The translations under genes were made by a program, and so were the position numbers. A stretch of DNA of 44,031 nucleotides from a virus, in IMG/VR virus record IMGVR_UViG_3300031952_000035, positions 1 to 44,031 of that record. One strand, given 5' to 3'. Below, one piece after another: positions 3,510 through 44,031 of the stretch; position 1 is the first letter of the stretch, and every line of letters starts with the position of its first letter. The notes under the pieces are model-generated. The model made no database searches, was not told where the DNA came from, and was given only the letters and a program-made list of their open reading frames with translations.

Positions 3510-4544
3510 ATGAGTCTCAACAAGAGGAAGGTTTTCAGGAGTCCGATCTTCTGGATCGGGCTTGCGTGTCTGTTGGTTCCGACCTTGTGGCCGGTTGCGG
3601 ATAGCGCCTTCGCGCTGATTTTCGACCGCAACATATCGTCCAGCGCGAACATCCTGCCATCGAAGATCATGGGTGGATCCGGCGGGTTCGGGGGTGGCAA
3701 GACGTTCTACGTGAACGCACTGGCCTCCCGAGCGCAGAACTTCCCGTCCGATTCGACTTTCGCAACGATTCAGCTCGCGCTGAACGCCTGCGTGACGGAT
3801 CGCGGCGATGTGGTTCTGGTGGCTCCGGCCAGTTATGCCATCACGGTTCCGCTCACCATGACGAAGGACAACGTGAAGCTCATGGCGCTGGACCAGCCAG
3901 CGGCAGGAAGCCAGAACGTCTACATCACCACTACCGATGCGGCGAGTTCCGCCACGGATCTGATTCAGATCGATGCCAACGACATCGTGGTATCGGGTCT
4001 GAAATTCACTCCGGGGAACGACTGCGTGAACGCCATCGATATCGCGGACACGTCCGTCAGCGACAACATCCTCATCTACAACTGTCGGTTCGCCATGACA
4101 GGTAGCGCGGCCAGTAGCATCGGCGTGAGGATCGGAGACGCCACGGCGGCGGCCACCAGGGGGTCCCATACCGTTGTGCGGGGTTGTCAGTTTGAGGGCT
4201 GTAAGGGCTATGCGGCGCAGATCAACGCGCCGTTCGCGCGCATCAGCGAGTGCTATGCGAACCTCGCGGCCGCGACGACCGGCTTCGCCACGGGCGATCC
4301 GGGCGCGGATGTCGAGATGTACGGGTACTTCGAGATCGACCACAACATCGTGACCGGCAACACCAATGCGTCCAATGAGCCGTTCTTCACGGCTCTGGGT
4401 GTGGAGTCCCACACCGGCATCGGGGTGATCCACGACAATCTCATCCACGGTGCGAAGGGCACGGACGACATCCATCCAGAGATGTGGATCAACAACTACC
4501 TCGGTAACGAGGCGGGCGGCGCTCTCTACGACCCGAAGACCTAG
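3510..4544 (+). CDS. Exported beta-helix-like protein with signal peptide
   Basis: The 344 aa product starts after GGGGAG and opens with a classical Sec signal peptide: basic n-region (KRKVFR), a hydrophobic core over residues 11-30 and the cleavage motif SAFA at 32-35. The mature part has short beta repeats rich in Asn, Asp, Ile and Val (residues about 60-330), with lines such as NDIVVSGLKFTPGNDCVNAI, typical of right-handed parallel beta-helices of the pectate-lyase type. Such folds occur in phage receptor-binding and depolymerase proteins, but those normally lack a signal peptide. The next-but-one gene carries a near-identical signal. No catalytic motif was recognised. Confidence 0.7.
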   Translation: MSLNKRKVFRSPIFWIGLACLLVPTLWPVADSAFALIFDRNISSSANILPSKIMGGSGGFGGGKTFYVNALASRAQNFPSDSTFATIQLALNACVTDRGDVVLVAPASYAITVPLTMTKDNVKLMALDQPAAGSQNVYITTTDAASSATDLIQIDANDIVVSGLKFTPGNDCVNAIDIADTSVSDNILIYNCRFAMTGSAASSIGVRIGDATAAATRGSHTVVRGCQFEGCKGYAAQINAPFARISECYANLAAATTGFATGDPGADVEMYGYFEIDHNIVTGNTNASNEPFFTALGVESHTGIGVIHDNLIHGAKGTDDIHPEMWINNYLGNEAGGALYDPKT

Positions 4545-5535: not shown

Positions 5536-8442
5536 GTGAAACGCTACTGGAAGCAAATCTCGGGCGCCACGCTCGTGGCGGTCGGTGTCATCCTCGGGGT
5601 GGTGTTCCAATCCGATTCCGGGGGGATCTATGATGTAATCGTGCCGCCCCCGGAAGGCGTGGTCTACGTTGACGCCAACGCCACCGACCGGGTCAATCCG
5701 GGCGGCAAGACCGTCACGCGCACGATTCAGAACAGCCAGAACTACCTGGCCGTGGCGGAAGACGGCACATCGGCCTGGCAGAGAACAAATACCGTCATCC
5801 AGCCTTCGCCGATCTCCGGGTGGGACTACGGGGTCAAGCGTGCGCCCTACCGAATCGGGTTCAAGCGCAACGGCACGGTGTCGATCTGGAATCAGGGATC
5901 CCGATACCAGTTTCAGGCCGTCCGGGTGGGGTATTTCACGCCCGGTGTAGCGGATTTCGTGCCCCTGACGGCGGCGAACTCGCCCACCCCCACAGTTGAA
6001 AATTGCGCAATCGTGTGGGAGAACTACTTCCCCGCCATTGACCAGATCGGGATTGTCGATGGAGGACACTATAAAGAGAACTTCCTGATCAAGGCGGCCG
6101 CGAGGTCTTGGCTTGCCTCGAATCCACCCGCAAACCCGGCTGGTGATTATTTCACCATCGTGTTCGAGGCGGATTGGGGGGAAGTCAATCGCACCACCAC
6201 GACCGGCACGATAAACGACAGCGAAGGGTACGAGATCGGATTCAAGGACACGGACGGCAACATCCTGGAATCGTTCCCCATGACGGAAGCGTATTCCGTG
6301 AACGCACCCGATACGACCATCCGGGTGCGGCACAAGCTCGTCCGCAAGGGACTGAAGAACTACATCCTCACGGGTGTGAAGTATGCCGACCTGATGGCGC
6401 TTCCCGCGGGGAACATCATCCTCGACCCGACGGTCATTCTTCAGCAGGGCGTCACGCCAGCCGCGACCTACACGGGGTGTGAGGACAACTACATGCGGGG
6501 GTCATTACACGCCGACAAGAACTACGGCACTGCGGCAACCGCTCTCTTGGGTGATGCTGGCGGGGCTACAAACATCAGGATTTTAATCCGGTTCAACAAG
6601 GGCTTTTTCGAGAACGTAACCATCACTTCCGCGATTTTGGGTCTCACCTGCACGGCTGAATCGTCTGCCGATGACTACGTCATCTACGCCTATGAACCGC
6701 TACAGAACTGGGTGGCGGGAACCAGCAACGGCGCGGCGGCAACCGGTGAAACTACGTATAACAACGTCAACCATTCTTATCGCGCGTGGAACACCGCCGG
6801 GTGTAGCGCCACCAGCGATTCTGCCGACCAGGATTCGACTTCAGACAGAAAGCTGACTGCCGTGGGTTCTGTCGCGATAACGGGCGTGGGAACATTCAGC
6901 ATAGACGTGACTGCCTCTTTTTTGCGTTACATGGCAGGCGGGGTAAACGCCAACAACTACGGCTGGATAATTGTCAATCCGGACGGAGAGACGAATGACC
7001 GCACCAAGACCATCTCGATGGCGAACACCGCCACAACGGCGAACCGTCCGACCCTGACGGTTATCTACACCTTGAAGTCGCTGACGAAGGCGAACAAGCT
7101 GGAGTTCGGTGCAACGGGAAACGAGTTCCTGATTGCTCCCAACCGCGTGAAGACCTACACGGATGGCGGGACGAAGAACCGGGTCCTGACCGCCGAGATA
7201 GGCGGCACGGCGTCCATCGTGGAAAGCGTTTCTGCATACACGATCACGCAGACCAGCACGAATGTTGCCTACTTCAGGACAACGGATTCGCAGTCCTACA
7301 ACACGCCGTGCATGTTGGGGGGTATCATTTCCGTTGCTTCCGTGGGGGCCTCCGGCGGGCGTGTGCTGAGCGTGCATTCGGTTGACTGGGATATGCGAAC
7401 GCCAGCGGCGGCCAGTGTCGCAGACCAGAAAATCGATCTGTATTTCATGGCAGATGGCACGGTTTCCTGCCAGTACTACGGCACCGATGCGGCATGGCAC
7501 TACTGGAAGGGTTCCACGATGGCGTGGACCACTACCGCGACAGACCGCATGGGAACCTGGACGGCGGCAACGCCGTACTGTGTCTACATTCAAAACGACG
7601 GCACGAACTACATCATGGGGTTTCGGGATGCCGCGTGTGTGGATTTCACCGGTTCTCCCGCCACGATAGCGCAGGCATCCGTGAATGACGCTACCAGCCG
7701 GGACTACTACGTCTTGGGGCATGAATGCACGGACGCCCTGACGTTCACGAACATGACCGTCTCGTCGATCCACATGTTCAAGGCGTACGCCAATGGACAT
7801 GTAAACGGCTGGGCGACATTCGGCATAGACACTGGATCGGCAGTCAGGATGGACGACAAGTTATACATGAAGTATGGGACAGGGGATGCGCCTCTACTAT
7901 ACACACCACTTCTTGCAGTTGGGGACAAGTGGTATGCGGAAGCCAAGGTATATCCCGTTACGGGTGCAACGCGATACGGCATGACCGTCGTGAGTTCTGA
8001 CTTTGACTTCTACGCCGACACAACGGACGAGTATGACGGGGATTCCAAAATCTGCATTGACTTCGCGGGATCCGGTGATGCCGGGTTCGTGAAGTTGATT
8101 TACATCAATGGCGCAGGAGATGATTTTTTCTTCACCTCTGCCGGGGCCTGGCAGGCATCATCCGCACAATGGGGATCCGTCCCGGGTAATAACTGGTACA
8201 CGATCTGGATAGAATACGACGGCGCGACATTCACGTTCGGGGCAAAAAATGCCTCGGGTGTTGCGTTGGGACCGTCTGCTTCCATTGCGGAAACCTCTTG
8301 CCGGGACACCACCAAAGACCACTACATCTATCTTGGAAAACTGGACGATGGTGCGGGAAGCGGGACGTTCAGGGTGGATTACTGGACGGTCTACTACGCA
8401 AAGGCGTTGGTGGGGATCAACCTCATGGGGATGGGATTCTAA
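5536..8442 (+). CDS. Large tail-fibre-like protein with N-terminal membrane segment and DNRLRE/CBM96-like domain
   Basis: I place the start at GTG 5536 (968 aa), seven bases after GGTGGGGG; an upstream ATG at 5512 has a weaker ribosome site. A hydrophobic segment (residues about 9-23) makes a signal anchor. Residues about 310-510 match the DNRLRE/CBM96 type: a DNYMRGS... start, NYGTAATALLGD, IRILIRFN, and a C-terminal NYGWIIVNPDGE...RPTLTVIYT. These domains are found in secreted adhesins and carbohydrate binders. Two later beta-sandwich segments (about 530-730 and 770-965) share D.DFY, DYYV/HYIYLG elements and look like LamG-type lectin folds. The likely role is host-surface binding. It is the third consecutive gene with an N-terminal membrane or export segment. 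Confidence 0.7.
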   Translation: MKRYWKQISGATLVAVGVILGVVFQSDSGGIYDVIVPPPEGVVYVDANATDRVNPGGKTVTRTIQNSQNYLAVAEDGTSAWQRTNTVIQPSPISGWDYGVKRAPYRIGFKRNGTVSIWNQGSRYQFQAVRVGYFTPGVADFVPLTAANSPTPTVENCAIVWENYFPAIDQIGIVDGGHYKENFLIKAAARSWLASNPPANPAGDYFTIVFEADWGEVNRTTTTGTINDSEGYEIGFKDTDGNILESFPMTEAYSVNAPDTTIRVRHKLVRKGLKNYILTGVKYADLMALPAGNIILDPTVILQQGVTPAATYTGCEDNYMRGSLHADKNYGTAATALLGDAGGATNIRILIRFNKGFFENVTITSAILGLTCTAESSADDYVIYAYEPLQNWVAGTSNGAAATGETTYNNVNHSYRAWNTAGCSATSDSADQDSTSDRKLTAVGSVAITGVGTFSIDVTASFLRYMAGGVNANNYGWIIVNPDGETNDRTKTISMANTATTANRPTLTVIYTLKSLTKANKLEFGATGNEFLIAPNRVKTYTDGGTKNRVLTAEIGGTASIVESVSAYTITQTSTNVAYFRTTDSQSYNTPCMLGGIISVASVGASGGRVLSVHSVDWDMRTPAAASVADQKIDLYFMADGTVSCQYYGTDAAWHYWKGSTMAWTTTATDRMGTWTAATPYCVYIQNDGTNYIMGFRDAACVDFTGSPATIAQASVNDATSRDYYVLGHECTDALTFTNMTVSSIHMFKAYANGHVNGWATFGIDTGSAVRMDDKLYMKYGTGDAPLLYTPLLAVGDKWYAEAKVYPVTGATRYGMTVVSSDFDFYADTTDEYDGDSKICIDFAGSGDAGFVKLIYINGAGDDFFFTSAGAWQASSAQWGSVPGNNWYTIWIEYDGATFTFGAKNASGVALGPSASIAETSCRDTTKDHYIYLGKLDDGAGSGTFRVDYWTVYYAKALVGINLMGMGF

Positions 8443-14631: not shown

Positions 14632-17600
14632 ATGGCGTCAAGCACGATATCACCGCTTGGGGGCACAAAGGGCATCCGGGGGACCCGCGGACTCCCGATG
14701 GCCAAGGTGCCAAAGCTGGTCGGGACCCCGAATCCATCCACGTGGTCCAAGATTCTCGACAACCTGAACCGGCTCGGGTATGGATCCAACGCGGTCATTC
14801 AGGACATCGTGGAAGGACGGGTGGATCGCCCGAAGTTCGAAGCCTGGTGGAAGGGTGTCACGCTACAGGAGAAGACGCTCGGGACCGACATCCTTACGGC
14901 CGCCGGGTGGGACCCTGACAGCCGGTTGGGGCAGATTGCCAAGACGGTTTCCGGGCTGGGGATCGATATCGCGGCAGACCCGACCACATGGGTCGGGACG
15001 GGCGTGACGAACTTCGGGAAGCTATCGAAAATCTTCTCCGGCGCTCGCAAGCTGGAGGGTGGTGTCAAGGCCCTGAAGGGCGGCAAGTACTGGCCTGCGA
15101 TTGAAACTGCCATGGCGGCGAAGAAGAAACTGTCCCTGGGGCCTACGCTGGCCGAACGCGCGGCGCGGCGCCAGTGGGCGCTTATCACGATGTTCGGGCA
15201 TCCCGTAACGACCCGCAAGGTTGATGTGGCGGTCGCCAAGGCGTTGGGCGTTGCGGGCACTTGGGCATCCCACACCGCGATGGGGAACTTCGCTCGCAGG
15301 CTATTCACCACCAAGACCGGGAACCCCAGACTCGACCGCCTGATCCTCCATATGGAGCGCGGAAAGAGCTACGGTAGCGCGGCCGTCGTGTCGGATGTGG
15401 CGGAGATCGCTAAGTCCGGGATAAAGTTGTCGAAGACGCAGATCGACGACGTGGTGAAGCTCCTGGACAAGAAGTACCGCACCGCAGTGGCGACCGAACT
15501 GGAATCCAAGGTATTGCAGAAGGCCACCTTCAAGGAGATGGTGCCGATCGCCAAGACCGTTGTGGTGGAGTTGAAGAAGCTACGATATGCCCTGGGCCAG
15601 ACCGTTGGAGAGGGTTGGCGCAAGGTTCTCGACGACTTTCTCCCGCACGACCCCGGTGTTGCCAAAGCGTTGGCGTTGAAGGGCAAGGAGCACATCGGGG
15701 TCATCATCGAGGACCTCCTGAAGGGCAAGCGCGGGTACGGGAAGAAGGCCGGTCTGCCGTTGCACCGGGCGTTATTCGATGCCGTGGCCCAACAGACCCA
15801 TGGAGTGCCGACCAGCGAGATGCTGGACAAGCGCATCCTGGGATTGAAACAGGTTCGTTTGGCGATGGACAAGGCCCAGGATGAGGCGACAGAGGACTTC
15901 CTGCGGCAAGCACGAGCGCGACTTGAGTCTGGTGCCGAAGTGCCGGGGGTTCAGCGGGACCTTGTGGACCGGGCATTGAACGGAGACCGTACAGGCCCCG
16001 CGGGAGAGCTGTGGAGGCAGGCCCGGGAGATCGCGTTCGACATGCCTGCCACGGAGAGTATTGCGGATCCCGCCATGCAGGGCCTCGGGAACCTCGCGCG
16101 GGCCATCGGGGAAGAAACGCGCCCAATAGGCATAAAACAGATGGGCAAACTCGCGGAAACAGAGGTGCAGTCCGCGAGGCAGTTGCGGCGTGAAATCCTG
16201 AACTCCATTGATTCGGTGGCGACCGAACTGGAGCGCAGTCCGCAGTTTGAGGCCCGGATACAGGAGACGCTGGCGAAGATCGGCGACCGCATGACGCCCG
16301 AACTGGCGACGGAGATCCGCGGGGAGGCGGCCAAGCTGGTCAACGCGGCGGCGGAGGAGCAGACCGTCATCATCCGGGAAATGCTTGCCAATCCAGCCGT
16401 GCGATACCAGCGCGGCGCCCGAATCGCCAATCGCATGGAAGCCAGCATCGCGGACATCCGCAAGATCCGCGGAGAGCTAGAATCCGCTGTCCCGGCAGTC
16501 GAGTGGGTGAAGCAGGAGACCGAGAGGATCGTCACGAGGAAGATGGAAAAAATCCTTGTCGGAGCGGATCCAAACGCGAAGCGCATGGTGGAGTTGTTCT
16601 CCGCTGGCATGAAGAAGTTCTGGGAGCAGGAGGAGGCCTTGGGACTGATCAAGAACCAGGTTGAGAGCTACTTCCCGCACATCCTGCACCCGGACATGCA
16701 GAAGCTGATCATCACGACCGTCAAGGAGAATCCCGTCTACCGCAAGGTCTGGGACTCCTACCTCAAAAACAGCCTGTCGAGGAAGTTCACGGATCTCGAC
16801 GTATTCACGATCAACGAGATGCTTCGGAAGGGTGATTTGGCTCCCGAGGGGTTCAAGGCGATTTTCAAGGACCAGACGTTCATCGAGAAGGCCATGAAGA
16901 TCCAGCCTGAGGAGGCGGAGTTCTTCATCACCAACCCTCTGGTGGCCTACATGGTCCGGGGCGAGCGAAGCGTGAAGGCCGTGGCGGCACAGCGTTTCAA
17001 GAACACCGTCATGCAACTGGAGCGTCAGGGAGGATTCTCCAAGAAGATCCTGAGCGCCAACGATGACGCGGCGATCCGCATCGCGGTTGCCGAGAATCCC
17101 GGGTGCATGGCGTATCTGGTGAGGACGGATCTGGAGGACTTGAACTTACCCGCCAAGCTGGTTCACGACATCGAGAATGGCGGGCAGTTCACGCTATTCG
17201 ATCCCGAGGACATCAAGGAGATAACGAAACTGAACCCGAAGGCCAAGAAGCTCACGGCCTTTGTCATGCCGGAAGAGGTGATCCAGGAACTGAACCGCGT
17301 CATGCCGGTATCGATCAACCGCAGTGAATACCGGGAGTTCGTGAAGATAAGCCTGTGGCTGAACAGCCGCTTCAAGGCTTGGACGCTGGGAATCTTCCCG
17401 GCCTATCACCTTCGTAACATGATGGGAAACGTGTGGCTGTCATGGCTGGGAGGTCTCAAAAACCCCGCCCGATACGGTCAGGCATGGGATCTCCAGAAGG
17501 CCGCGAATAAGTGGATGCGCACCGGAGACAAGACGGCCCTGCGGGCCTTGCGGTACGTGAACGAGGCGACCGGGCAGGTCATGGACGGCTTTGAGGCGTT

Positions 17601-23121: not shown

Positions 23122-23139
23122 GCTTCTCGGCCAGCTTCC
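23122..23139. repeat. 18-bp direct repeat, copy 1
   Basis: Identical to 23503-23520. The two copies bracket the membrane protein gene 23145-23489, so recombination between them would remove exactly that gene. Confidence 0.85.
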
Positions 23140-23144
23140 TGGAA

Positions 23145-23489
23145 TTACTTCCCCTTCTTGTCCTCGCTGAGGTTGGTCAGCCAGTCTTTGGCGAGGTTGT
23201 AGATTTCTCCGCACTCACGCTTCAAGGTTTCACTGTTGGCGAGCTTGGGGATTATGATAATCGCGGCGGCCTCCTTGGTCGTGGGTGTCAATATGCCCAA
23301 GATGATCATGACGAACCCGATAACAGCCACTTTCTTGGAGACCCTGATCCATTTATTAGCATTCTCGACGTTCGTGCCAATAAAGGCTGTGATTCCACCA
23401 ATGAAAGTAGCAATTCCGGCTGTCAACAGAAACGTTTGAATCCCCCCTAACCGTGTCAACCAGTAGATCGTCCAACCGCTGATACTCAT
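23145..23489 (-). CDS. Two-transmembrane-segment membrane protein
   Basis: The 114 aa protein has AAAGGAG seven bases before its ATG. Hydrophobic segments are at residues about 17-38 and 51-68. A third, weaker one (AAAIIIIPK) is near 75. The C-terminus is charged (LSEDKKGK). It lies between 18-bp direct repeats. It may alter the host membrane or exclude other phages, but this is a guess from type and position. Confidence 0.7.
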   Translation of the reverse strand: MSISGWTIYWLTRLGGIQTFLLTAGIATFIGGITAFIGTNVENANKWIRVSKKVAVIGFVMIILGILTPTTKEAAAIIIIPKLANSETLKRECGEIYNLAKDWLTNLSEDKKGK

Positions 23490-23502: not shown

Positions 23503-23520
23503 GCTTCTCGGCCAGCTTCC
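23503..23520. repeat. 18-bp direct repeat, copy 2
   Basis: Second copy of the repeat at 23122-23139, located just upstream of the ribosome site of the membrane protein gene. Confidence 0.85.
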
Positions 23521-25004: not shown

Positions 25005-25205
25005 CTAACCACCGTCGCCGTAGCCGGAGCCGTAGCCGGAGCCGTAGCCGGAGCCGTAGCCGTAGCCGTAGCCGTCGCCGTAGCCGGAGCCGTAGCCGGA
25101 GCCGTAGCCGTAGCCGTAGCCGGAGCCGTAGCCGTAGCCGTAGCCGGAGCCGTAGCCGGAGCCGTAGCCGGAGCCGGAGCCGTAGCCGGAGCCTATATGT
25201 TCCAT
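25005..25205 (-). CDS. Gly/Tyr/Ser dipeptide-repeat protein
   Basis: The 66 aa protein begins MEHIGSGYGSG and is then almost wholly made of GS and GY dipeptides, with two GD (YGDGYG and the end). The start overlaps the last codons of the upstream gene; GGAGAAGG lies just before its ATG. Tyr appears every second or fourth residue. Such Gly/Tyr repeats are known from aromatic-rich phase-separating or adhesive proteins. Expression is plausible because the frame is open, coupled and in register with the neighbours. It could also be a non-coding repeat that happens to be open. Confidence 0.5.
   Translation of the reverse strand: MEHIGSGYGSGSGYGSGYGSGYGYGYGSGYGYGYGSGYGSGYGDGYGYGYGSGYGSGYGSGYGDGG
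25021..25196. repeat. Hexanucleotide tandem repeat
   Basis: About 29 units of GCCGTA or GCCGGA (one GCCGTC pair), read on the plus strand, fill this stretch. Units are multiples of three, so gain or loss of units keeps the minus-strand frame. It encodes the Gly/Ser/Tyr repeats of the gene 25005-25205. Confidence 0.95.
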
Positions 25206-25462
25206 TTCACCTTCTCCGTATCAATAATAGAGATCAGTGCATGCATCGGCACGCGGATCGTCCCCACCTTATCCATCACCGTGTTTTCGTTCGGCCCACA
25301 CAAGGCCAGCTCCCCCAACCCCTTGGTTGTGCCCCACCGTCTCAGATTCATGGCGTTCTGGATCACGCACCAGTCTGTCCCACACTCAACATCGCCAACG
25401 TACACAAACCCCTTGTCCACCACCGTAATCGCAAACCCGGTAAACACTTCACGCTTTTCCAT
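25193..25462 (-). CDS. Small protein of unknown function
   Basis: The 89 aa protein starts at ATG 25462, seven bases after AGGAGG. It is beta-rich (FAITVVDKGFVYVGDVECGTDWCVI) with Cys at about 27 and 32, and a C-terminus that ends in TEKVKWNI. The Gly/Tyr-repeat gene starts within its last codons. Function unknown. Confidence 0.65.
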   Translation of the reverse strand: MEKREVFTGFAITVVDKGFVYVGDVECGTDWCVIQNAMNLRRWGTTKGLGELALCGPNENTVMDKVGTIRVPMHALISIIDTEKVKWNI

Positions 25463-25483
25463 GACAACCTCCTTTTCTCGGCC

Positions 25484-25507
25484 TCGCATCAGAACCCCAC
25501 CTCCAAC
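25484..25507. repeat. 24-bp direct repeat, copy 1
   Basis: Identical to 26188-26211. It covers the last codons (LEVGF), the stop and the next six bases of the methyltransferase gene. Confidence 0.9.
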
Positions 25508-26193
25508 AGTGCTTTCCCGATCCATTCCGTGTACGCGGGCGGGATGGCCTGGCTTAATTCGTTTCCAGTCATCCAATCGATCCCCATCGCATCCCGTCGA
25601 TCATTCACGGTGAAGCAACTGAAATCCAGACAATCTCGCTGACTGCTCCCGCCTGAGTGTACATACACCCCGATGGTGTTTGGGATTCTACGTCGCTGTG
25701 GATGTTGGCCTCCCCCATAGACTCCGATGACCGATGCGTTTTTCGCGTGATTGCATGGAGGGGTAAGAACGCCAAGTGCCGGGCTTGTTTCAAACAACCG
25801 GTGCCTGCGCAACTGCGATCCGTGTTTTGTTTGCAGTCCGAACATCGTACCACACAGCATGATCGGATCGATGAGAGGCGCGCCGGGCACGTTCTCTATC
25901 ACGTACGGCCGCCCGGAGGCTTTCAACAGTTCCCGGCATGGTGTCAGCAAATCTGGATGCTCCCTCTCCGGCCATAGCTTTCCCATCGCCGAAAACCTCT
26001 GGCATGGCGGGCTGGCATGGATGACATCGAACTCCGCGCCGTGCTCTCGGAGGTATCCCAGCGCGTCCGCCTGGTGAAACTCAAACGGATAGCGCGGTTG
26101 CGGATTCAGATCCACACCCACAACCTCGAAGCCAGCACGGTGGTATCCAACGGAACACCCACCGGCACCGGAAAACAGATCAAGCAGTCGCAT
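25489..26193 (-). CDS. C5-cytosine DNA methyltransferase
   Basis: The 234 aa product carries motif I DLFSGAGG (5-12), motif IV SPPCQRFS with the catalytic Cys64, ENV of motif VI at 100-102, motif VIII QLRRHRLFE (127-135) and motif X ELSQAIPPAYTEWIG near the C-terminus. It is short for the family because the target-recognition region is small. Such orphan phage enzymes protect DNA from host restriction. The start overlaps the RusA stop (TGATG). The gene is bracketed by 24-bp direct repeats, so it may be an inserted cassette. Confidence 0.9.
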   Translation of the reverse strand: MRLLDLFSGAGGCSVGYHRAGFEVVGVDLNPQPRYPFEFHQADALGYLREHGAEFDVIHASPPCQRFSAMGKLWPEREHPDLLTPCRELLKASGRPYVIENVPGAPLIDPIMLCGTMFGLQTKHGSQLRRHRLFETSPALGVLTPPCNHAKNASVIGVYGGGQHPQRRRIPNTIGVYVHSGGSSQRDCLDFSCFTVNDRRDAMGIDWMTGNELSQAIPPAYTEWIGKALLEVGF

Positions 26194-26211
26194 CAGAACC
26201 CCACCTCCAAC
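26188..26211. repeat. 24-bp direct repeat, copy 2
   Basis: Second copy of the repeat at 25484-25507. It spans the last codons of RusA, its stop and the start of the methyltransferase gene. Confidence 0.9.
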
Positions 26212-26585
26212 CGCTCGATCTGCCGGTCATCGTTGTAGACGCCCGGCCAAGTCGTTATCACCCGTTTCCCCACCCGCACCTTGCGGGGATTCATGGCATC
26301 TTCGATCAGCTTCGCCAAGTTGGTTAAATCCCCGCGCACGCCCTTCGGTCTTGTGGACGCTCGCGGCAGTTCTGTCACAATAACCCACGTGCCCAACTCC
26401 AGGATTTCCAACTGCAACCGCACCGGCCCGGCAAACGGCTTGCGCTTGCCGAACTTCTCCCGCGCAATCGCGGTGATCCGCTCCTCCTCGGCCTTCGACG
26501 GACTCCACGTCCGGCCATGCACGAACCGTGGACGGGCCTTCGGTCGCGCCGAGAAGGGGATGTAGAACCGGAAGGAGGAGGTCAT
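26193..26585 (-). CDS. rusA: RusA-type Holliday junction resolvase
   Basis: The 130 aa protein has the RusA pattern: basic N-terminal KARPRF, GDLTNLAKLIEDAM at 85-98 (Asp86, Asn89 and Asp96) and VYNDDRQIERL at 117-127 (Asp119 and Asp120). These acidic residues bind the magnesium that cuts Holliday junctions. It is coupled to the MazG-like gene upstream (ATGA) and followed directly by the DNA methyltransferase. The likely role is resolving replication or recombination intermediates before packaging. Confidence 0.9.
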   Translation of the reverse strand: MTSSFRFYIPFSARPKARPRFVHGRTWSPSKAEEERITAIAREKFGKRKPFAGPVRLQLEILELGTWVIVTELPRASTRPKGVRGDLTNLAKLIEDAMNPRKVRVGKRVITTWPGVYNDDRQIERLEVGF

Positions 26586-26845
26586 AGATACATCTCCGCG
26601 ATTTTCAGCGCGAGCGTCGCCACTTGGATTGCCTCCGCATAGACTTTACTGTCTGATCCACCACGGTATTCAGCCTCGGAAATTGCGTTGGCCAACTCTC
26701 CCAGTTCCTCGGTAGTGTACATGAGCCATTCAGCCGGGGTATGGGTTTGCACTCCCCATTTCTCTATCTGTTTTTTCCCTTCATCCACTACCGCGCGGAA
26801 AAGCACTGTTTGATGTTCAAACTCCCGATCTGTTATCTCTCTCAT
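26582..26845 (-). CDS. MazG-like nucleotide pyrophosphohydrolase
   Basis: I choose ATG 26845 (87 aa), which overlaps the upstream stop as ATGA and lies six bases after GGGGG. The sequence has KWGVQTHTPAEWLMYTTEELGELANAI and VYAEAIQVATLALKIAEM, the helical pattern of small phage MazG-like proteins with an E-E-x-x-E metal site. These hydrolyse nucleoside triphosphates to monophosphates and can counter host stress signalling or clean nucleotide pools. The second acidic motif has Gln in place of the usual Asp, as in some phage versions. Confidence 0.75.
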   Translation of the reverse strand: MREITDREFEHQTVLFRAVVDEGKKQIEKWGVQTHTPAEWLMYTTEELGELANAISEAEYRGGSDSKVYAEAIQVATLALKIAEMYL

Positions 26846-27063
26846 CTGCATCCCCCTTTCTCGGCCAGCACCTGCGCAATGGCTTCGAGTAATGACGATG
26901 GAACATATGGATTCCAACCCCAATCCGCTTCCGCATCCGTATAGACATCACTGCACTTCGTCCGTATCGGGCACGTCTCGCAATCATTATTGGCAATTTT
27001 CCAGCACGGCATCCTCCCGTTCTGGCACTCGTACGCCGCCCGGAGATAGTCGGACTTCGTCAT
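26842..27063 (-). CDS. Small Cys-cluster protein, paralog of the gene at 27060
   Basis: Start ATG 27063 (73 aa), ATGA-coupled and six bases after GGGAGG. Residues about 14-37 contain Cys in a pattern ECQ..MPC...NDCETCPIRTKC that looks like a metal site. The last 13 residues, AIAQVLAEKGGCR, are identical to those of the upstream gene, yet nine of the 13 codons differ, all silently. The shared tail suggests a conserved interaction segment. Function unknown. Confidence 0.6.
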   Translation of the reverse strand: MTKSDYLRAAYECQNGRMPCWKIANNDCETCPIRTKCSDVYTDAEADWGWNPYVPSSLLEAIAQVLAEKGGCR

Positions 27064-27185
27064 CTGCATCCTCCCTTTTCAGCAAGAACCTGGGCGATTG
27101 CGTCCCGTGAATCTTCCAGTGTTTTATCCTTGCTCAGTGACATGCACTCCGCCCTAATCTTGCAGTCCCGGCACTCAGGATCCAT
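27060..27185 (-). CDS. Small Cys protein with the tail AIAQVLAEKGGCR
   Basis: A 41 aa protein if it starts at ATG 27185; an alternative non-ATG start just upstream, after AGAGGAG, would add about 15 residues including CYC. It contains CRDCKIRAEC and ends with the same 13 residues as the next gene. The first half of its neighbour has a related Cys pattern, so the two are tandem paralogs. The start is uncertain because no clear ribosome site lies in front of the ATG. Confidence 0.5.
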   Translation of the reverse strand: MDPECRDCKIRAECMSLSKDKTLEDSRDAIAQVLAEKGGCR

Positions 27186-27220
27186 GCAGTAGCAAAGACC
27201 GTCGGGATTGTTCAGCTCCT

Positions 27221-28057
27221 CTAGTCCACCATCTTCAGCTTCCGTACTCTCCACTTCGCATCGTTCCCCGGCAGACCCGCGAACAGGATGTCCGCCGCCT
27301 CGAACTCCACGGTCAGCGGGATCAGCTTGTGATCCGGCTCGCACAGCCAGCACCATTCCGGACGATAACCGAGCCGGAGCACGTGCAGGCCCGGCCCGCA
27401 CTGCTGGTCGTCCGCCGTGCCCTCTGCCTCGACAATGGCCCCCCGTGGATACGCAATTGGCGTGCCACCGTCGAAGTTCGGGGACATCCGTGCTTTTGTG
27501 ACCCACTTTGTTGCCCGGATCATTCCGGAGTAAAATCCCCGGATCTGCTCCGCCAGGGCCAGAGACGTTACGCCATCGCCAAGGCTCACGTAGTCGCCCA
27601 GGCGCACGTCGTTGCCCAGGCGCACGTCGTTGCCCAGGCGCACGCCATCGCCAAGGCGCACGTCGTTGCCCAGGCTCACGTCGTTGCCCAGGCGCACGTC
27701 GTTGCCAAGGCTCACGCGGTCGCCAAGGCTCACGTCGTTGCCCAGGCTCACGTCGTTGCCCAGGCTCACGTCGTTGCCAAGGCTCACGCGGTCGCCAAGG
27801 CTCACGCGGTCGCCCAGGCTCACGTCGTTGCCCAGGCTCACGCGGTCGCCAAGGCTCACGCGGTCGCCCAGGCTCACGTCGTTGCCCAGGCGCACGTCGT
27901 CGCCAAGGCTCACGCGGTCGCCCAGGCGCACGCGGTCGCCAAGGCTCACGTAGTCGCCCAGGCGCACGTCGTTGCCCAGGATCACGTAGTTGCCGTTCGG
28001 CAATTTCCGCCAGCCGTTCTCATCCGGTGTGATCGCGTAGATTTCTTCAGCTTTCAT
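27221..28057 (-). CDS. Hexapeptide-repeat left-handed beta-helix protein
   Basis: This 278 aa protein has a 25-residue N-terminus, then 23 hexapeptides of the form L-G-[DN]-x-V-[RS] (residues about 26-165), exactly the [LIV]-[GAED]-x2-[STAV]-x signature of left-handed parallel beta-helices. Each three repeats form one coil, so about 7.7 coils. The C-terminal 110 residues form a separate domain with [16 protein letters not shown] and [10 protein letters not shown], which resembles domains fused to other repeat proteins in phages. No acyl-transferase catalytic residues were recognised. The acidic, regular helix could act as a protein or nucleic-acid mimic. It is coupled upstream by ATGA. Confidence 0.8.
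27570..27994. repeat. 18-bp tandem repeat coding for hexapeptides
   Basis: About 23 units of 18 bp with small variants (for example GCCCAGGCTCACG or GCCAAGGCTCACG followed by TCGTT, CGGTC or TAGTC on the plus strand). It codes for the L-G-x-x-V-x repeats on the minus strand. No unique spacers lie between units. Confidence 0.95.
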
Positions 28058-29078: not shown

Positions 29079-29605
29079 GCCTTGTCCTCCTTCAATGTCG
29101 GTTTAATCCTCGCCCGGATCATCGCGCATAGTGCGACCCCAGATGCCACGGCGGCCCTGGCGGCGGCCCCGGCGGCCCAGTAGGCGGCCCCGGCGGCCCC
29201 GGCGGCCCCGGCGGCCCAGTAGGCGGCCCCGGCGGCCCAGTAGGCGGCCCCGGCGGCGGCCCCGGCGGCCCCGGCGGCGGCCCCGGCGGCCCTGGCGGCG
29301 GCCCCGGCGGCGGCCCCGGCGGCCCCGGATTGCTCCGTGGGATCCGCCAGCCACCTACGGGCGGCCTCTATCGCCAGCCGGGGCCTGTCCTCTCCAGCGG
29401 GAACCAGATGCAGAACCGACTCGGCGAACTCGCACGCCAGGGCAACGTAATCCGCCTGCGTCGCCCATCCCTTTCGCTCCACCAGCCACAGCATCCACTG
29501 TGGGTTTTCCAAATGCTCCCATACCCAAGCGAGATCGTGCTCCCCCACCCAATCAACCCCATCCTGGCAGGCTTCTTTCTTGACAAGCCATTTGCGAAAT
29601 GTCAT
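29075..29605 (-). CDS. Imm5-like helical protein with Ala/Gly repeat
   Basis: I choose ATG 29605, six bases after AGGAGG (176 aa). Residues 40-90 contain ACEFAESVLHL...DRPRLAIEAARRWLAD, matching proteins annotated as putative immunity protein (Imm-5-like), whose C-terminal half is an AAR-rich helical repeat. Here the repeat (residues about 93-155) is Gly-Ala-Ala with GAAYWAAGAA and GAAARAA variants. The repeat is stretched and very GC-rich. The tail MIRARIKPTLKEDKA is charged. The name immunity is a family label; the true function is unknown. Confidence 0.6.
   Translation of the reverse strand: MTFRKWLVKKEACQDGVDWVGEHDLAWVWEHLENPQWMLWLVERKGWATQADYVALACEFAESVLHLVPAGEDRPRLAIEAARRWLADPTEQSGAAGAAAGAAARAAGAAAGAAGAAAGAAYWAAGAAYWAAGAAGAAGAAYWAAGAAARAAVASGVALCAMIRARIKPTLKEDKA
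29148..29324. repeat. GC-only tandem repeat in the Imm5-like gene
   Basis: A stretch made of GGCGGCCCC-type units, often interrupted by CAGTA (encoding Tyr-Trp). Units are multiples of three in the coding frame. GC content is near 90 percent. Confidence 0.9.
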
Positions 29606-31824: not shown

Positions 31825-32172
31825 CTACCCGATCTTGTGCCACCTGTCCGGACAGGCCCACCCTTGGACGAGCTCCGCTACATTGCCCCCGATGATCGTA
31901 ATGGAGATGTACCGGAGTGTCGATGCCCCCCGCGTGCAGGAGCAGAGATCGATCTTCCCGTTCGTGCCCCATGCCAGAAGGTATGCGGCCCTGGAGATCC
32001 TTCCTCCGTAGACCGCGTAGCACCTACGGCATGTCCGGGCATCCCGTCCGTAGAGCATCCGACAGACGCTCGGATCGGATTCCGCGACCGGGGTCCCGCA
32101 GGCCGGGCAAGCGTAATCCTCGGAATGTTTCCTCTCCTCGATCCGCCGGTCGGTTTCGTTCGTCCGTTCCAT
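31825..32172 (-). CDS. Cys-rich zinc-binding protein, unknown function
   Basis: The 115 aa protein starts after AGGAGGATAAAAA. It has CPACG (22-26), CRM (37), CRRC (48-51) and CSC (about 76-78), enough for two zinc sites. The start region (25 bp including the first codons and ribosome site) is identical to that of the gene at 34686, so both begin MERTNET. The C-terminus is beta-rich with ISITIIGGNVAEL. Function unknown. Confidence 0.65.
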   Translation of the reverse strand: MERTNETDRRIEERKHSEDYACPACGTPVAESDPSVCRMLYGRDARTCRRCYAVYGGRISRAAYLLAWGTNGKIDLCSCTRGASTLRYISITIIGGNVAELVQGWACPDRWHKIG

Positions 32173-32177
32173 TTTTT
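32153..32177. repeat. 25-bp direct repeat, copy 1 (shared gene start)
   Basis: Identical to 34667-34691. It covers the ATG, first codons (MERTNET) and the upstream T-run of the minus-strand gene. The homology continues, with changes, through the AGGAGG ribosome site. Confidence 0.85.
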
Positions 32178-32453: not shown

Positions 32454-32501
32454 TCCCCCGGTTTGCTATCCCCGGTTTGCCGCCCGCCTCCTGAAATCCT
32501 C
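32454..32501. repeat. 48-bp direct repeat, copy 1
   Basis: Exact match to 32800-32847. It covers the last codons (EDFRRRAANRG), stop and start of the gap after the gene 32466-32780. Confidence 0.95.
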
Positions 32502-32780
32502 AAGTAATCCCTCTGCAATCTCCATCCAGTTCACGCGTCCCAATGCACCCGCAAGAAGATCCGAGTAGATCCCGTTCGTCAATTCCGGCATCCCCTCCTC
32601 GTGCTCCTCCTGGAGCCGTTTCTCCAAGGTGTAGATTGCATCGTCCTTGTCTTTCGCATCCTCCGCTATCTCCTCCGCCGCGCCGTTCCAGTAGTTGCAG
32701 GATCCCTCGTCGTTCGCAATCCAGAGATTCGCCGCCCACGTTTCCCGATTTGAGTACCCGTTACACCGTTCATTTTCCAT
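32466..32780 (-). CDS. YSNRETW-type small phage protein
   Basis: The 104 aa protein has GGAGGATGCG before its ATG. MENERCNGYSNRETWAANLWIAND matches a recurring N-terminal motif in phage and archaeal-virus proteins of unknown function. Then follow an acidic helix (EEIAEDAKDKDDAIYTL) and a conserved-type C-terminus (VNWMEIAEGLLEDF). It lies between 48-bp exact direct repeats, so it looks like a removable cassette. Its last 11 residues are identical to those of the upstream gene. Confidence 0.75.
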   Translation of the reverse strand: MENERCNGYSNRETWAANLWIANDEGSCNYWNGAAEEIAEDAKDKDDAIYTLEKRLQEEHEEGMPELTNGIYSDLLAGALGRVNWMEIAEGLLEDFRRRAANRG

Positions 32781-32793
32781 CGCATCCTCCTTT

Positions 32794-32805
32794 GGGGTTT
32801 CCCCC
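32794..32805 (-). promoter_or_regulatory. GNRA-loop hairpin before a ribosome site (copy 1)
   Basis: Minus-strand GGGG-GAAA-CCCC, two bases before AAGGAGG and the ATG at 32780. The same hairpin precedes the genes at 33024 and 33347. Confidence 0.7.
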
Positions 32806-32847
32806 GGTTTGCTATCCCCGGTTTGCCGCCCGCCTCCTGAAATCCTC
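32800..32847. repeat. 48-bp direct repeat, copy 2
   Basis: Second copy of 32454-32501. It spans the last codons and stop of the gene 32812-33024 and part of the hairpin module. Confidence 0.95.
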
Positions 32848-33036: not shown

Positions 33037-33050
33037 GGGGGGTTTCCCCC
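33037..33050 (-). promoter_or_regulatory. GNRA-loop hairpin before a ribosome site (copy 2)
   Basis: Minus-strand GGGG-GAAA-CCCC (with one more C) directly adjoins AGGAGG of the gene starting at 33024. Confidence 0.7.
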
Positions 33051-33053
33051 GGT

Positions 33054-33347
33054 TTACAGTCCCGCCCTCGCCGCCTCCGCCCTCGCCGCCTCCGCCGCCG
33101 CCCACTCCTCCGCCTCCGCCCACTCCGCCCGCGCGATCGCCCACTCCGCCGCCGACGCTCTCGCCTCCTCCTCCGCCGCCCACTCCGCCCGCGCGATCGC
33201 CGCCGACCTCGCCGCGATCGCCGATCCTTCCGTCCTGTTCGTCCCGGCCAACCAGCTCACCGCCCACCGCTCCACCGATTTGATGCCGCAGTGGAGCGCG
33301 TAGTTTTTCACCGCCACGTTTGCCCGCCGCACCTTTTCCATTTCCAT
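33054..33347 (-). CDS. Ala/Glu/Trp helical-repeat protein
   Basis: Start ATG 33347 after AGGAGGAAACG (97 aa). The first 45 residues are ordinary (MEMEKVRRANVAVKNYALHCGIKSVERWAVSW). From residue 45 on, a degenerate helical repeat ARAEWA / AAEEEARASAAEWA dominates. This matches the AAR-type repeats of Imm5-like phage proteins, as in the gene 29075-29605. The plus-strand sequence here is CCGCC-rich. Function unknown. Confidence 0.65.
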   Translation of the reverse strand: MEMEKVRRANVAVKNYALHCGIKSVERWAVSWLAGTNRTEGSAIAARSAAIARAEWAAEEEARASAAEWAIARAEWAEAEEWAAAEAARAEAARAGL

Positions 33348-33358
33348 CGTTTCCTCCT

Positions 33359-33370
33359 GGGGTTTCCCCC
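33359..33370 (-). promoter_or_regulatory. GNRA-loop hairpin before a ribosome site (copy 3)
   Basis: Minus-strand GGGG-GAAA-CCCC directly adjoins AGGAGG of the gene starting at 33347. Confidence 0.7.
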
Positions 33371-33381
33371 GGTTTGTAAGC

Positions 33382-34239: not shown

Positions 34240-34686
34240 CTATTTCGTGGCCATGGCTACCATCCCCGCGAGATCCAAGACCTCCCGGAAGTAGTTTTCC
34301 CAGATCTCCCGGAGGAGATCCAGATCCGCGCCGTCCAGCTTGACCGTCGCGCCGTCGTACCAGTCGAGGAAAACGTACTCCACCCGGTCGAGGCTGAAGG
34401 CCGGATCGCAGTAAAAACGGAACTCGTCTCCAGGTCCTCCCGTCGAAAGCTGCCAGAGGAAATAACCGGTTTTCGGGTCGGGGAGCATGGATAATCGGAT
34501 GGATAAGTTGAACGTCCCCGCCGCGACGTAATCAAAACAGAGCCCGTACTCGTTCAGCGTCCCATGATCGGGATCCCCGTTTTCGTCCCCGGCCTTCTCC
34601 AGATCCCAGAGTTTCCGGATCACGTCAACCTCTTCGCACAAGCTCCTCCGGATCCTCTCCTCGCATGTTTCGTTCGTCCGTTCCAT
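34240..34686 (-). CDS. First leftward early gene, unknown function
   Basis: The 148 aa protein starts after AGGAGGAAGAAAAA and is the first gene below the main early promoter. Its beginning, MERTNETCEERIRRSL, copies the start region of the gene at 32172. The body is acidic and beta-rich (TGYFLWQLSTGGPGDEFRFYCDPAFSLDRVEYVFLDWY, in part), and a helix ends it. First early genes are often takeover proteins. No family recognised. Confidence 0.65.
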   Translation of the reverse strand: MERTNETCEERIRRSLCEEVDVIRKLWDLEKAGDENGDPDHGTLNEYGLCFDYVAAGTFNLSIRLSMLPDPKTGYFLWQLSTGGPGDEFRFYCDPAFSLDRVEYVFLDWYDGATVKLDGADLDLLREIWENYFREVLDLAGMVAMATK

Positions 34687-34691
34687 TTTTT
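34667..34691. repeat. 25-bp direct repeat, copy 2 (shared gene start)
   Basis: Second copy of 32153-32177, at the start of the first early gene. Confidence 0.85.
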
Positions 34692-35213: not shown

Positions 35214-35858
35214 ATGGGGAGCATGGATAATCGGTCCGAGGTTTTCGGGTTCAACGTCCGCGCCGATCTCGTAGACCGGATCAGGGAGATATGCGCGGAT
35301 CCCTATTTCGCGGCTAATCCGGGGGTATTCGATTTTGTCCGCGCGGTCAGGCGGGGGGAACGGGTAGGGGGAGCGTGGATCCGGAATATCGAAGGTAAAT
35401 CCGAGATAAACCCGAATGAGAGCAGAAAAGAGCAGGCGGAAAGGCGTAAAGTAGCGACGGAGAAGGGGAATCGTTGTTTATACCTCCCATGCGTTCAAGC
35501 GCTTACCCGCATCCTATCATCCGATCCGTTGTCGGCTTGCTACGACGCCGAGAGCTGGATCCTCCGAAAGCTGGTAACGCAAGCTTGCCAAGGGACTGGA
35601 CGGGATCGGGTCTCGCTGGAGTCAAGGCGGATTGTGCTATCAATAATCGGCCACAAGATGCCCGACAAGCAGACGATAAACGGTAGCGGGATCCCTGCAA
35701 TCCCCAAGGGATCCGCGCGGGGGCATATCAAAGAGGCAATCAAGCTCGCGCGGATGGGTTCGGGTAAGGGCCGCGCGCGGTCCGACCGGTCCGTTCCGTC
35801 TCCGGAAGAGCCCGGGAATAGCGTGGGAATAGGGGCGGATGAGGTAGCGGACGCCTAA
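35214..35858 (+). CDS. Unknown protein, second gene of the rightward pair
   Basis: A 214 aa product from ATG 35214 (or 35223). The first part (VFGFNVRADLVDRIREICADPYF) is helical; the middle is basic with KEQAERRKVATEKGNRC; the C-terminal half is Arg/Gly/Ser/Pro-rich and likely disordered. Basic composition suggests nucleic-acid binding. It may be co-transcribed with the nuclease. No family recognised. Confidence 0.55.
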   Translation: MGSMDNRSEVFGFNVRADLVDRIREICADPYFAANPGVFDFVRAVRRGERVGGAWIRNIEGKSEINPNESRKEQAERRKVATEKGNRCLYLPCVQALTRILSSDPLSACYDAESWILRKLVTQACQGTGRDRVSLESRRIVLSIIGHKMPDKQTINGSGIPAIPKGSARGHIKEAIKLARMGSGKGRARSDRSVPSPEEPGNSVGIGADEVADA

Positions 35859-42867: not shown

Positions 42868-44031
42868 TGCCGACCGAAGCCAAGCAAGGCTACAAGCCGT
42901 CAGACCGGGACCGCGCGACCATCGCGCTTGCCGAGGAGCGCATCAAGGTCCAGGACGACGCGCGTGTGCCCTACGAAGCGCAGATGTTCTACAACTACGC
43001 GATGTTCCTCGGGCATCAGTGGCTGTTGTGGGACAAGAACATGAACGTGTTCCGGGTCGCCAAGGAGCCGTCGTGGCGCGTCCGGCTGGTATCGAACCGG
43101 ATATTCGATTGGGTCAAGAGCCGGGTGGCGAAGATCGTGAAGTCCCAACCGAAGATGCTCGTTGCGCCCGCCACGATGGAGGACCGGGATCGCTCATCCG
43201 CCAAGGTGGGCGAGAAGATCGTGACCGCCCAGGAGCGCCAGGACAACATGGCGCTCAAGCGCATCGAGTGGGCCTACTGGGCGTGCATATGCGGAACCGG
43301 GTGGGTCAAGGCGTTCTTTAACCCCGAGGCGGGACCGCTGGTGGACCCCCGCGAGGGAGAGACGCCGGAGAGCATGCCCGAAACCACGGAGAACATCGAC
43401 CTCGAAGCGGTGGTCAAGTCCGCGAAGATGTCCATCGAGCCGTTCCATCTCGGGGAGATCCAGACGGAGGTGCTGTCGCCATTTGAAGTCCGGTTCGACC
43501 AAATGGCATCCTGCATTGAGGACTGCCGGTGGATTGGCGTGATGCGCTACCGGAGTCTGGTGGACATCAAGGCCATGTGGCCCAAAAACGCAGACTACGT
43601 GGCGTCCGAGTCGATCCGCAGTGACAACACCTTCGAGGGCAAGCTCGCCAGCCTTGGCGGCACCTACTCGATGAACTTCAAGCCCTCGATGCAGAACGAA
43701 GAAGACATGCAGGGCGCCTACGTGCGGGAGATCTGGGAACGCGCGAGTGACGGCCACCCGAACGGCCGACTCTACATCACCGCGGGGGGCGTGCTGTTGG
43801 AGGACGGCGATAACCCCACCCCGATAGACAAGAAACGCACGGGGGACCTGCCGTTCTGTTATTTCCGCGAGACCATCAAGCCGGGAAGTTTCCCCGGCAT
43901 CAGCACGGTGGAGCAGTTGACGCCCTTGCAGGTCGAGTACAATAAGACGAACTCGCAAATCGTCGAGAGCAAGAACCTCATGGCTCGCCCAAAGATCCGC
44001 AAGCCGCGTCAAGCGATGATCCACAAGGATG
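42867..44031 (+). CDS. Portal protein, N-terminal part (continues at base 1)
   Basis: ATG 42867 overlaps the previous stop. The frame runs open to the window end and, after joining the 127-bp overlap, ends at 1020 (685 aa). The N-terminal 150 residues are helical with a Trp-rich segment (MFLGHQWLLWDKNMNVFRV), typical of P22/T7-type portals; the middle includes IEPFHLGEIQTEVLSPFEVRFDQ and a GVLLEDGDNP beta-turn. See the entry at 1-1020 for the C-terminus. Confidence 0.85.
   Translation, partial: MPTEAKQGYKPSDRDRATIALAEERIKVQDDARVPYEAQMFYNYAMFLGHQWLLWDKNMNVFRVAKEPSWRVRLVSNRIFDWVKSRVAKIVKSQPKMLVAPATMEDRDRSSAKVGEKIVTAQERQDNMALKRIEWAYWACICGTGWVKAFFNPEAGPLVDPREGETPESMPETTENIDLEAVVKSAKMSIEPFHLGEIQTEVLSPFEVRFDQMASCIEDCRWIGVMRYRSLVDIKAMWPKNADYVASESIRSDNTFEGKLASLGGTYSMNFKPSMQNEEDMQGAYVREIWERASDGHPNGRLYITAGGVLLEDGDNPTPIDKKRTGDLPFCYFRETIKPGSFPGISTVEQLTPLQVEYNKTNSQIVESKNLMARPKIRKPRQAMIHKD
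43905..44031. repeat. Terminal direct repeat, right copy
   Basis: Identical to 1-127. Removing one copy gives the circular genome of 43,904 bp. Confidence 0.95.

Follow-up and report, generated by a model that had tools for sequence, protein, structure and literature searches.

The kind of insertion scar considered here is already published, in the accounts of Island3 and LRRHood given in PMC3029335. Genes 67 and 68 of mycobacteriophage Island3 have 60 bp in common at their 3' ends where Brujita has one copy, and genes 43 to 46 of mycobacteriophage LRRHood are flanked by 29-bp direct repeats, located at a gene end and present as a single copy in relatives, for which the authors propose loss or gain by recombination. 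PMC3029335 also cites work in which phage mosaicism arises at conserved short boundary sequences, with recombination at gene boundaries, describes a phage moron as an ORF with its own promoter and terminator that is absent from relatives, and gives the Bxb1-type stoperator as GTTACGWDTCAAG. Gene-start repeats are likewise already published, in the description of such repeats in PMC3203893.

The entry of a single gene into a tight operon without breaking its neighbors is seldom visible. Phages often gain and lose anti-restriction methyltransferases. Here we describe a methyltransferase gene that lies between two copies of the 3' end of its upstream neighbor. The window, by which we mean the whole stretch of DNA analyzed, comes from an uncultured bacterial virus; the record is 44,031 bases long. 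Its two ends are identical over 127 bp (1 to 127 and 43905 to 44031), and the record is therefore probably a complete circular genome; the length of 127 bp suggests that they arose where a circular contig overlaps itself by one assembly k-mer, and that they are not a terminal repeat of biological origin. The genome encodes a terminase, a portal, a major head protein, a DnaB-like helicase, a clamp-loader-like protein and RusA, and thus belongs to a tailed phage. A terminase query gave no match among viral contigs, the best phage terminase matches were 21 to 27% identical, and the best capsid match was 29%. A RusA query found nothing in viral contigs and nothing in genome contigs, and no close relative of the phage, with or without the methyltransferase, was present in the collections searched. 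The locus is made up of the following features, from upstream to downstream.

26193 to 26585, minus strand: RusA-like Holliday junction resolvase, 130 aa, upstream neighbor (Pfam PF05866, E=3.1e-8; PHROG 140, E=6.7e-12)
26188 to 26211, minus strand: repeat copy 1, with the last codons (LEVGF) and stop of RusA, GGAGGT and the methyltransferase start ATGCGA; judged to be the original junction
25489 to 26193, minus strand: C5-type DNA methyltransferase, 234 aa (Pfam PF00145, E=2.7e-9; PHROG 363, E=7.5e-47)
25484 to 25507, minus strand: repeat copy 2, with the LEVGF codons and stop that end the methyltransferase, GGAGGT and ATGCGA; judged to be derived
25193 to 25462, minus strand: downstream gene for a conserved phage protein of 89 aa (51% and 48% identical to proteins of loci L083 and L086)

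The methyltransferase is assigned to the C5 class by its PF00145 match together with the catalytic PPC and ENV motifs; motifs I, IV, VI and VIII and an IPPAY sequence are present. RusA is identified by its PF05866 match and by a conserved DDxQ tail. No mobility enzyme lies beside the methyltransferase, which is flanked by RusA and by small genes that gave no Pfam match.

A preliminary description of this DNA had proposed that the methyltransferase is bracketed by exact 24-bp repeats in which both it and RusA end with LEVGF and a stop codon, and our analysis confirms this arrangement. The two direct copies are identical and are 704 bp apart from start to start. On the minus strand, each reads GTTGGAGGTGGGGTTCTGATGCGA, that is, one base, the LEVGF codons, TGA and five bases (TGCGA). 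The TGA stop overlaps an ATG, a Shine-Dalgarno-like GGAGGT lies 9 nt before that ATG, and the copy ends in ATGCGA; the six bases said to follow the stop are thus five after TGA, or six if counted from the A of the overlapping ATG. The claim that recombination between the copies would remove exactly the methyltransferase was borne out by excision of one unit in silico, which eliminated the methyltransferase, left the 130-aa RusA unchanged, and placed the 89-aa gene, with its own AAGGAGG, directly after RusA. The 24-mer has no exact match in IMG/VR.

Chance or an assembly artifact is scarcely credible as the source of this repeat. The longest exact direct repeat in each of 200 simulated order-3 Markov genomes was 13 to 17 bp. 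The metagenomic origin of the record is the one point in favor of an artifact; against it, the 127-bp end overlap implies long assembly k-mers and suggests a 127-mer assembly, which would resolve a 24-bp repeat.

Which of the two genes originally owned the shared tail was examined in homologs of both. Among RusA relatives, the DDxQ motif was found in 51 of 65 loci, giving 20 distinct tails that end either 8 or 22 to 32 residues past the motif. Six of the 20 end 8 residues after DDxQ, and the window RusA ends 7 after it. The commonest short tail is DDRQVHRLVGKKK or similar, followed by TAATG or TGATG, and therefore the DDRQIERLEVGF of the window, followed by TGATG, is consistent with a native RusA ending. 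Of 80 methyltransferase homologs, 73 gave a readable tail, and none of the 73 ends in LEVGF. The family tail approximates (K/R)QL(L/I/M)xx(L/I), from which the KALLEVGF of the window deviates at the glycine, the very point from which it resembles RusA; at the position of its LLE, 65 of the 73 homologs have L, I, M or V, and 5 have LE. The closest methyltransferase, in L003, is 77% identical in amino acid sequence and has a different ending. Since LEVGF fits the conserved tail of RusA and occurs in 0 of 73 methyltransferase homologs, RusA is judged, on these tails, to have given the sequence, and the copy at the methyltransferase end to be the derived one. No RusA homolog was detected in the 80 methyltransferase loci; this family is scattered across unrelated phages without a RusA neighbor. 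The idea that repeat copy 2 is followed by a frame-shifted RusA tail was judged weak on inspection by eye and set aside.

Our preferred reading, which we consider probable, is that a single methyltransferase gene was inserted at the junction between RusA and the next gene by short-homology recombination, duplicating 24 bp. A free-standing C5 methyltransferase gene would have entered this junction of the early operon without a mobility enzyme, through recombination of an illegitimate or annealing type. On the left, the incoming gene would be joined at ATGCGA, the stop/start; on the right, it would be joined a little further upstream, within the RusA tail and near TTGGAGGT, a sequence that both genes can encode there. 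Two joins made in reverse order on the target would yield the 24-bp junction duplication, as might occur if the incoming ends annealed to two different genome copies in the replicating phage pool. As the duplicate carries the last codons, the stop, the Shine-Dalgarno sequence and the start, the neighbors would be unharmed and translational coupling would be kept, and the same repeat would now permit clean loss of the methyltransferase by ordinary recombination. We infer that the insertion took place in the window phage, where the two joins lie and in what order, and that the gene can still be excised today. PHROG and Pfam scans, which covered part of the ORFs of the genome, identified no annealing protein.

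A tandem duplication followed by loss could also leave such a pattern, if replication slipped from the methyltransferase tail back to the RusA tail, so that two methyltransferase copies arose, and a later deletion spared just the first bases of the second. The early genes of this phage are prone to duplication, with long tandem arrays and two adjacent gene starts (30478 and 30269) that have 20 bp in common. Among other loci, L398 and L353 are bracketed because two methyltransferases stand in tandem, and L217 and L215 have an upstream remnant of a methyltransferase tail. This course of events requires a second precise deletion right after ATGCGA, however, and no trace of a second methyltransferase copy was seen by eye after repeat copy 2; we regard it as unlikely.

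Four tandem arrays lie in early genes (25012 to 25193, 27576 to 27994, 29145 to 29325 and 33062 to 33201), and their types are SGYG repeats, hexapeptide LGDRVS repeats, Ala/Gly-rich and AEWA-like. At 26842 to 26886 and 27060 to 27104, two small cysteine-containing genes have the common ending AIAQVLAEKGGCR and similar next-gene starts, and probably represent an old tandem duplication.

Once tandem arrays and record ends are set aside, most exact direct repeats of at least 17 bp lie at gene junctions in the early region on the minus strand; exceptions are the pair at 35216/34480, one copy of which falls within a gene, and, on the structural side, the pair at 16216/15487. Two of the pairs at junctions are as follows.

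32800 to 32847, minus strand: copy of a 48-bp exact repeat at the 3' end of the gene upstream; the bodies of the two genes look unrelated
32454 to 32501, minus strand: partner copy of the 48-bp repeat at the 3' end of a DUF7249 gene (PF23907), encoding EDFRRRAANRG and the stop
23503 to 23520, minus strand: copy of an 18-bp exact repeat just upstream of the gene at 23145 to 23489
23122 to 23139, minus strand: partner copy of the 18-bp repeat just downstream of that gene

The gene at 32466 to 32780, bracketed by the 48-bp repeat, has a bracketing score of 42 and shows the architecture of the methyltransferase locus a second time in this phage. At the threshold used, 7 of 39 genes of the phage are bracketed, one of them (25005 to 25205) through an internal tandem array only, in a gene list made by hand after the repeats were known, in which 27060 to 27187 has no clean ORF and three more starts were shortened. 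For genes of at least 100 aa, 3 of 18 are bracketed versus 6 of 1,378 ORFs in other viral loci (p=1.4e-4), or 2 of 17 without the methyltransferase (p=0.004).

Several shared sequences of this genome are found at gene starts. Twenty-five bp encoding MERTNE begin two genes 2.5 kb apart (34667 to 34691 and 32153 to 32177), with similar upstream sequence including the Shine-Dalgarno. GGCCGAGAA recurs near gene starts on the minus strand, at 25483, 26866, 23513 and 23132, the first of these directly after repeat copy 2. AAACCGGGGGAAACCCC, 17 to 19 bp, precedes the Shine-Dalgarno at three junctions (33358 to 33376, 33039 to 33055 and 32793 to 32811) and is a gene-start-associated repeat with a possible small hairpin.

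In a further explanation, the 24 bp are a functional junction element (a coupling Shine-Dalgarno with stop/start), copied or converged under selection for expression, and not an insertion scar. The GGAGGT 9 nt before the ATG does lie inside the repeat, other operon junctions share Shine-Dalgarno-containing sequence such as that with AAACCGGGGGAAACCCC, and start-associated repeats are known in Cluster K mycobacteriophages, as described in PMC3203893. However, the ATG of copy 2, in frame with the next gene, lies 27 nt upstream of the likely start of that gene (25462), which has its own Shine-Dalgarno and near whose position the homologs of the 89-aa protein start. Selection for expression need not keep 24 exact bases including the LEVGF codons, and there is no third copy of the 24-mer elsewhere in the genome. 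We consider a junction element improbable, somewhat more so than tandem duplication.

Support for insertion as a single gene comes from phages in which the corresponding site can be seen empty. The C5 methyltransferase gp83 of mycobacteriophage Dreamboat, 51.7% identical in amino acid sequence to that of the window, lies between CTTGACACGTAAC-AGGAGGAAC and CTTGACACGTAACGAGAGGAAC, with two junction copies of about 22 nt. The Dreamboat region matches 508 records, 4 of which cover at least 80% of it, and three relatives were compared: Abbyshoes, PSullivan and Bxb1 each have one junction copy joining the same flanks, where two BLAST segments overlap by 22 nt. Because the Dreamboat repeat contains the stoperator GTTACGWDTCAAG, a multicopy regulatory site that many junctions carry, this case may use preexisting repeats rather than making one; the two copies are also not identical along their full length. 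A mixed picture among four mycobacteriophage C5 methyltransferase regions counts against our preferred reading: a repeat across the gene was found in Dreamboat and Petp2012, and no repeat of at least 10 bp in Wanda and Pinto. The homologous methyltransferase of Wanda (L464) adjoins an HNH endonuclease gene without a flanking repeat. The RusA junction itself is occupied by a C5 methyltransferase in L099, where the gene starts exactly at the RusA stop/start and the next gene reads TIQIELDPWEYEH. Among 27 loci with this short RusA tail, the Q(I/V)ELDPWE gene directly follows RusA in 20 and something else does in 6, L099 being the remaining one.

The preliminary description had likened the gene to a cassette inserted at a gene boundary. 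The comparison is fair for gain and loss behavior, with Dreamboat and L099 as analogs, and does not extend to a dedicated mobile element, because the repeats resemble borrowed gene ends rather than recognition sites and other genes of the same phage are bracketed as well. Integron attC sites are inverted-repeat sites with a GTTRRRY core; the 24 bp contain no inverted-repeat arms, and their GTTGGAG deviates from this core at the last base. A transposon would have a transposase and terminal inverted repeats between its target duplications; here the methyltransferase ORF takes up the 704-bp unit, and no inverted repeat joins its ends. An integron cassette, a transposon or a homing system would explain direct repeats that flank one gene, and the HNH endonuclease beside the homologous methyltransferase of Wanda also speaks for it, but no enzyme lies alongside the gene in the window and the sequence and length of the repeat differ in every analog (17 to 34 nt). 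We consider any such element very unlikely.

When the ends of methyltransferase genes were compared with the loci around them (73 cases, the window included), the best scores reached 39 at 5' ends and 67 at 3' ends and did not exceed 14 in mid-gene controls. On reading, L333 and L034 are close counterparts of the window locus with other sequences. The N4/N6 methyltransferase of L333 and an upstream gene, named helicase-like from its sequence rather than from a family search, both end in VDQQPVNWLAI, with overlapping stop and start. L034 has RALQKMG in the upstream gene and AALQKMG in the methyltransferase; in L019 and L336, the first codons of the methyltransferase are common to the downstream gene (5'-end versions). 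The common 21 bp of L037 comprise stop, Shine-Dalgarno and start, with the upstream copy not at the end of a recognized gene, and in L024 the N- and C-terminal codons of the methyltransferase resemble those of a small zinc-ribbon-like gene upstream.

Some other loci share sequence in different ways. In L424 (3910 to 6419), neighboring operon genes start with variants of LADGNPS/PDSNPSYR, a common N-terminal tag. L049 has 67 identical bases (3833 to 3899 and 5633 to 5699) at the methyltransferase 3' end and near the start of the upstream gene. In L319 (1353 to 1940), a gene ending in PLFNRVRAIA repeats sequence just after the upstream methyltransferase-like gene, which is end sharing in the other direction.

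Whether methyltransferases are bracketed more often than other genes was surveyed in several sets. In the first C5 set, 3 of 77 methyltransferases were bracketed versus 4 of 746 other ORFs. A blind C5 replicate gave 0 of 66 versus 2 of 632 in viral loci and 0 of 71 versus 0 of 557 in cellular genomes, and the idea that the C5 family as such is special was rejected as stated; the replicate also counts against our preferred reading of the window. The idea for methyltransferases of any class, specified before two new scans, gave 3 of 99 versus 3 of 1,012 (Fisher p=0.011) after 31 of 160 loci were dropped as redundant and 50 ORFs with methyltransferase motifs (0 of 50 bracketed) were set aside; this nominally positive result is weakened by L398, where the bracketed gene belongs to two methyltransferases in tandem, and without it p=0.066. 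A uniform reanalysis of 268 of 311 viral loci gave 8 of 283 versus 11 of 2,333 (p=4e-4), or p=0.003 against ORFs with homologs (2 of 575), both comparisons including the discovery set, and 6 of 206 versus 1 of 387 outside it (p=0.008); in these counts, L398 and L353 are adjacent methyltransferases missed by the automatic paralog filter, L215 is of the remnant type, L424 is a start-tag repeat, and the comparison group includes L053, which reads as a methyltransferase. More frequent bracketing of phage methyltransferases is thus suggestive and not settled, and the literature searched, mostly as listings, held no statement of it. This raises the possibility, which we put forward tentatively and with more doubt than belief, that phages preferentially acquire and shed stand-alone DNA methyltransferases of several classes, each as a single-gene unit inserted at a gene junction where a gene end is duplicated; this would be a scarless in/out switch of their own making that requires no mobility enzyme. 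Were the bias to hold in a larger survey, it would point to the genes that phages switch in and out most often, and to how they do so.

The scar described here shows one way in which a single gene may enter an operon, by duplicating a junction with last codons, stop, ribosome site and start, and the comparison with Dreamboat and L099 makes this testable in culturable phages. As in Island3 genes 67 and 68, the inserted gene finishes with the same C-terminal codons and 3' sequence as its upstream neighbor, here 24 bp with LEVGF and the stop; unlike the window, Island3 has an inserted gene of unknown function, a longer repeat and, in Brujita, a relative with the empty site. The unit of LRRHood comprises four genes (1.35 kb), whereas that of the window is a single gene. 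The boundary sequences of phage mosaicism are module boundaries common among phages, whereas in the window the boundary sequence is a neighbor's gene end present twice in one genome. Dreamboat resembles the window in having a homologous C5 methyltransferase between two junction copies and one copy in three relatives, although its repeat contains a stoperator and is inexact in part, whereas that of the window is exact.
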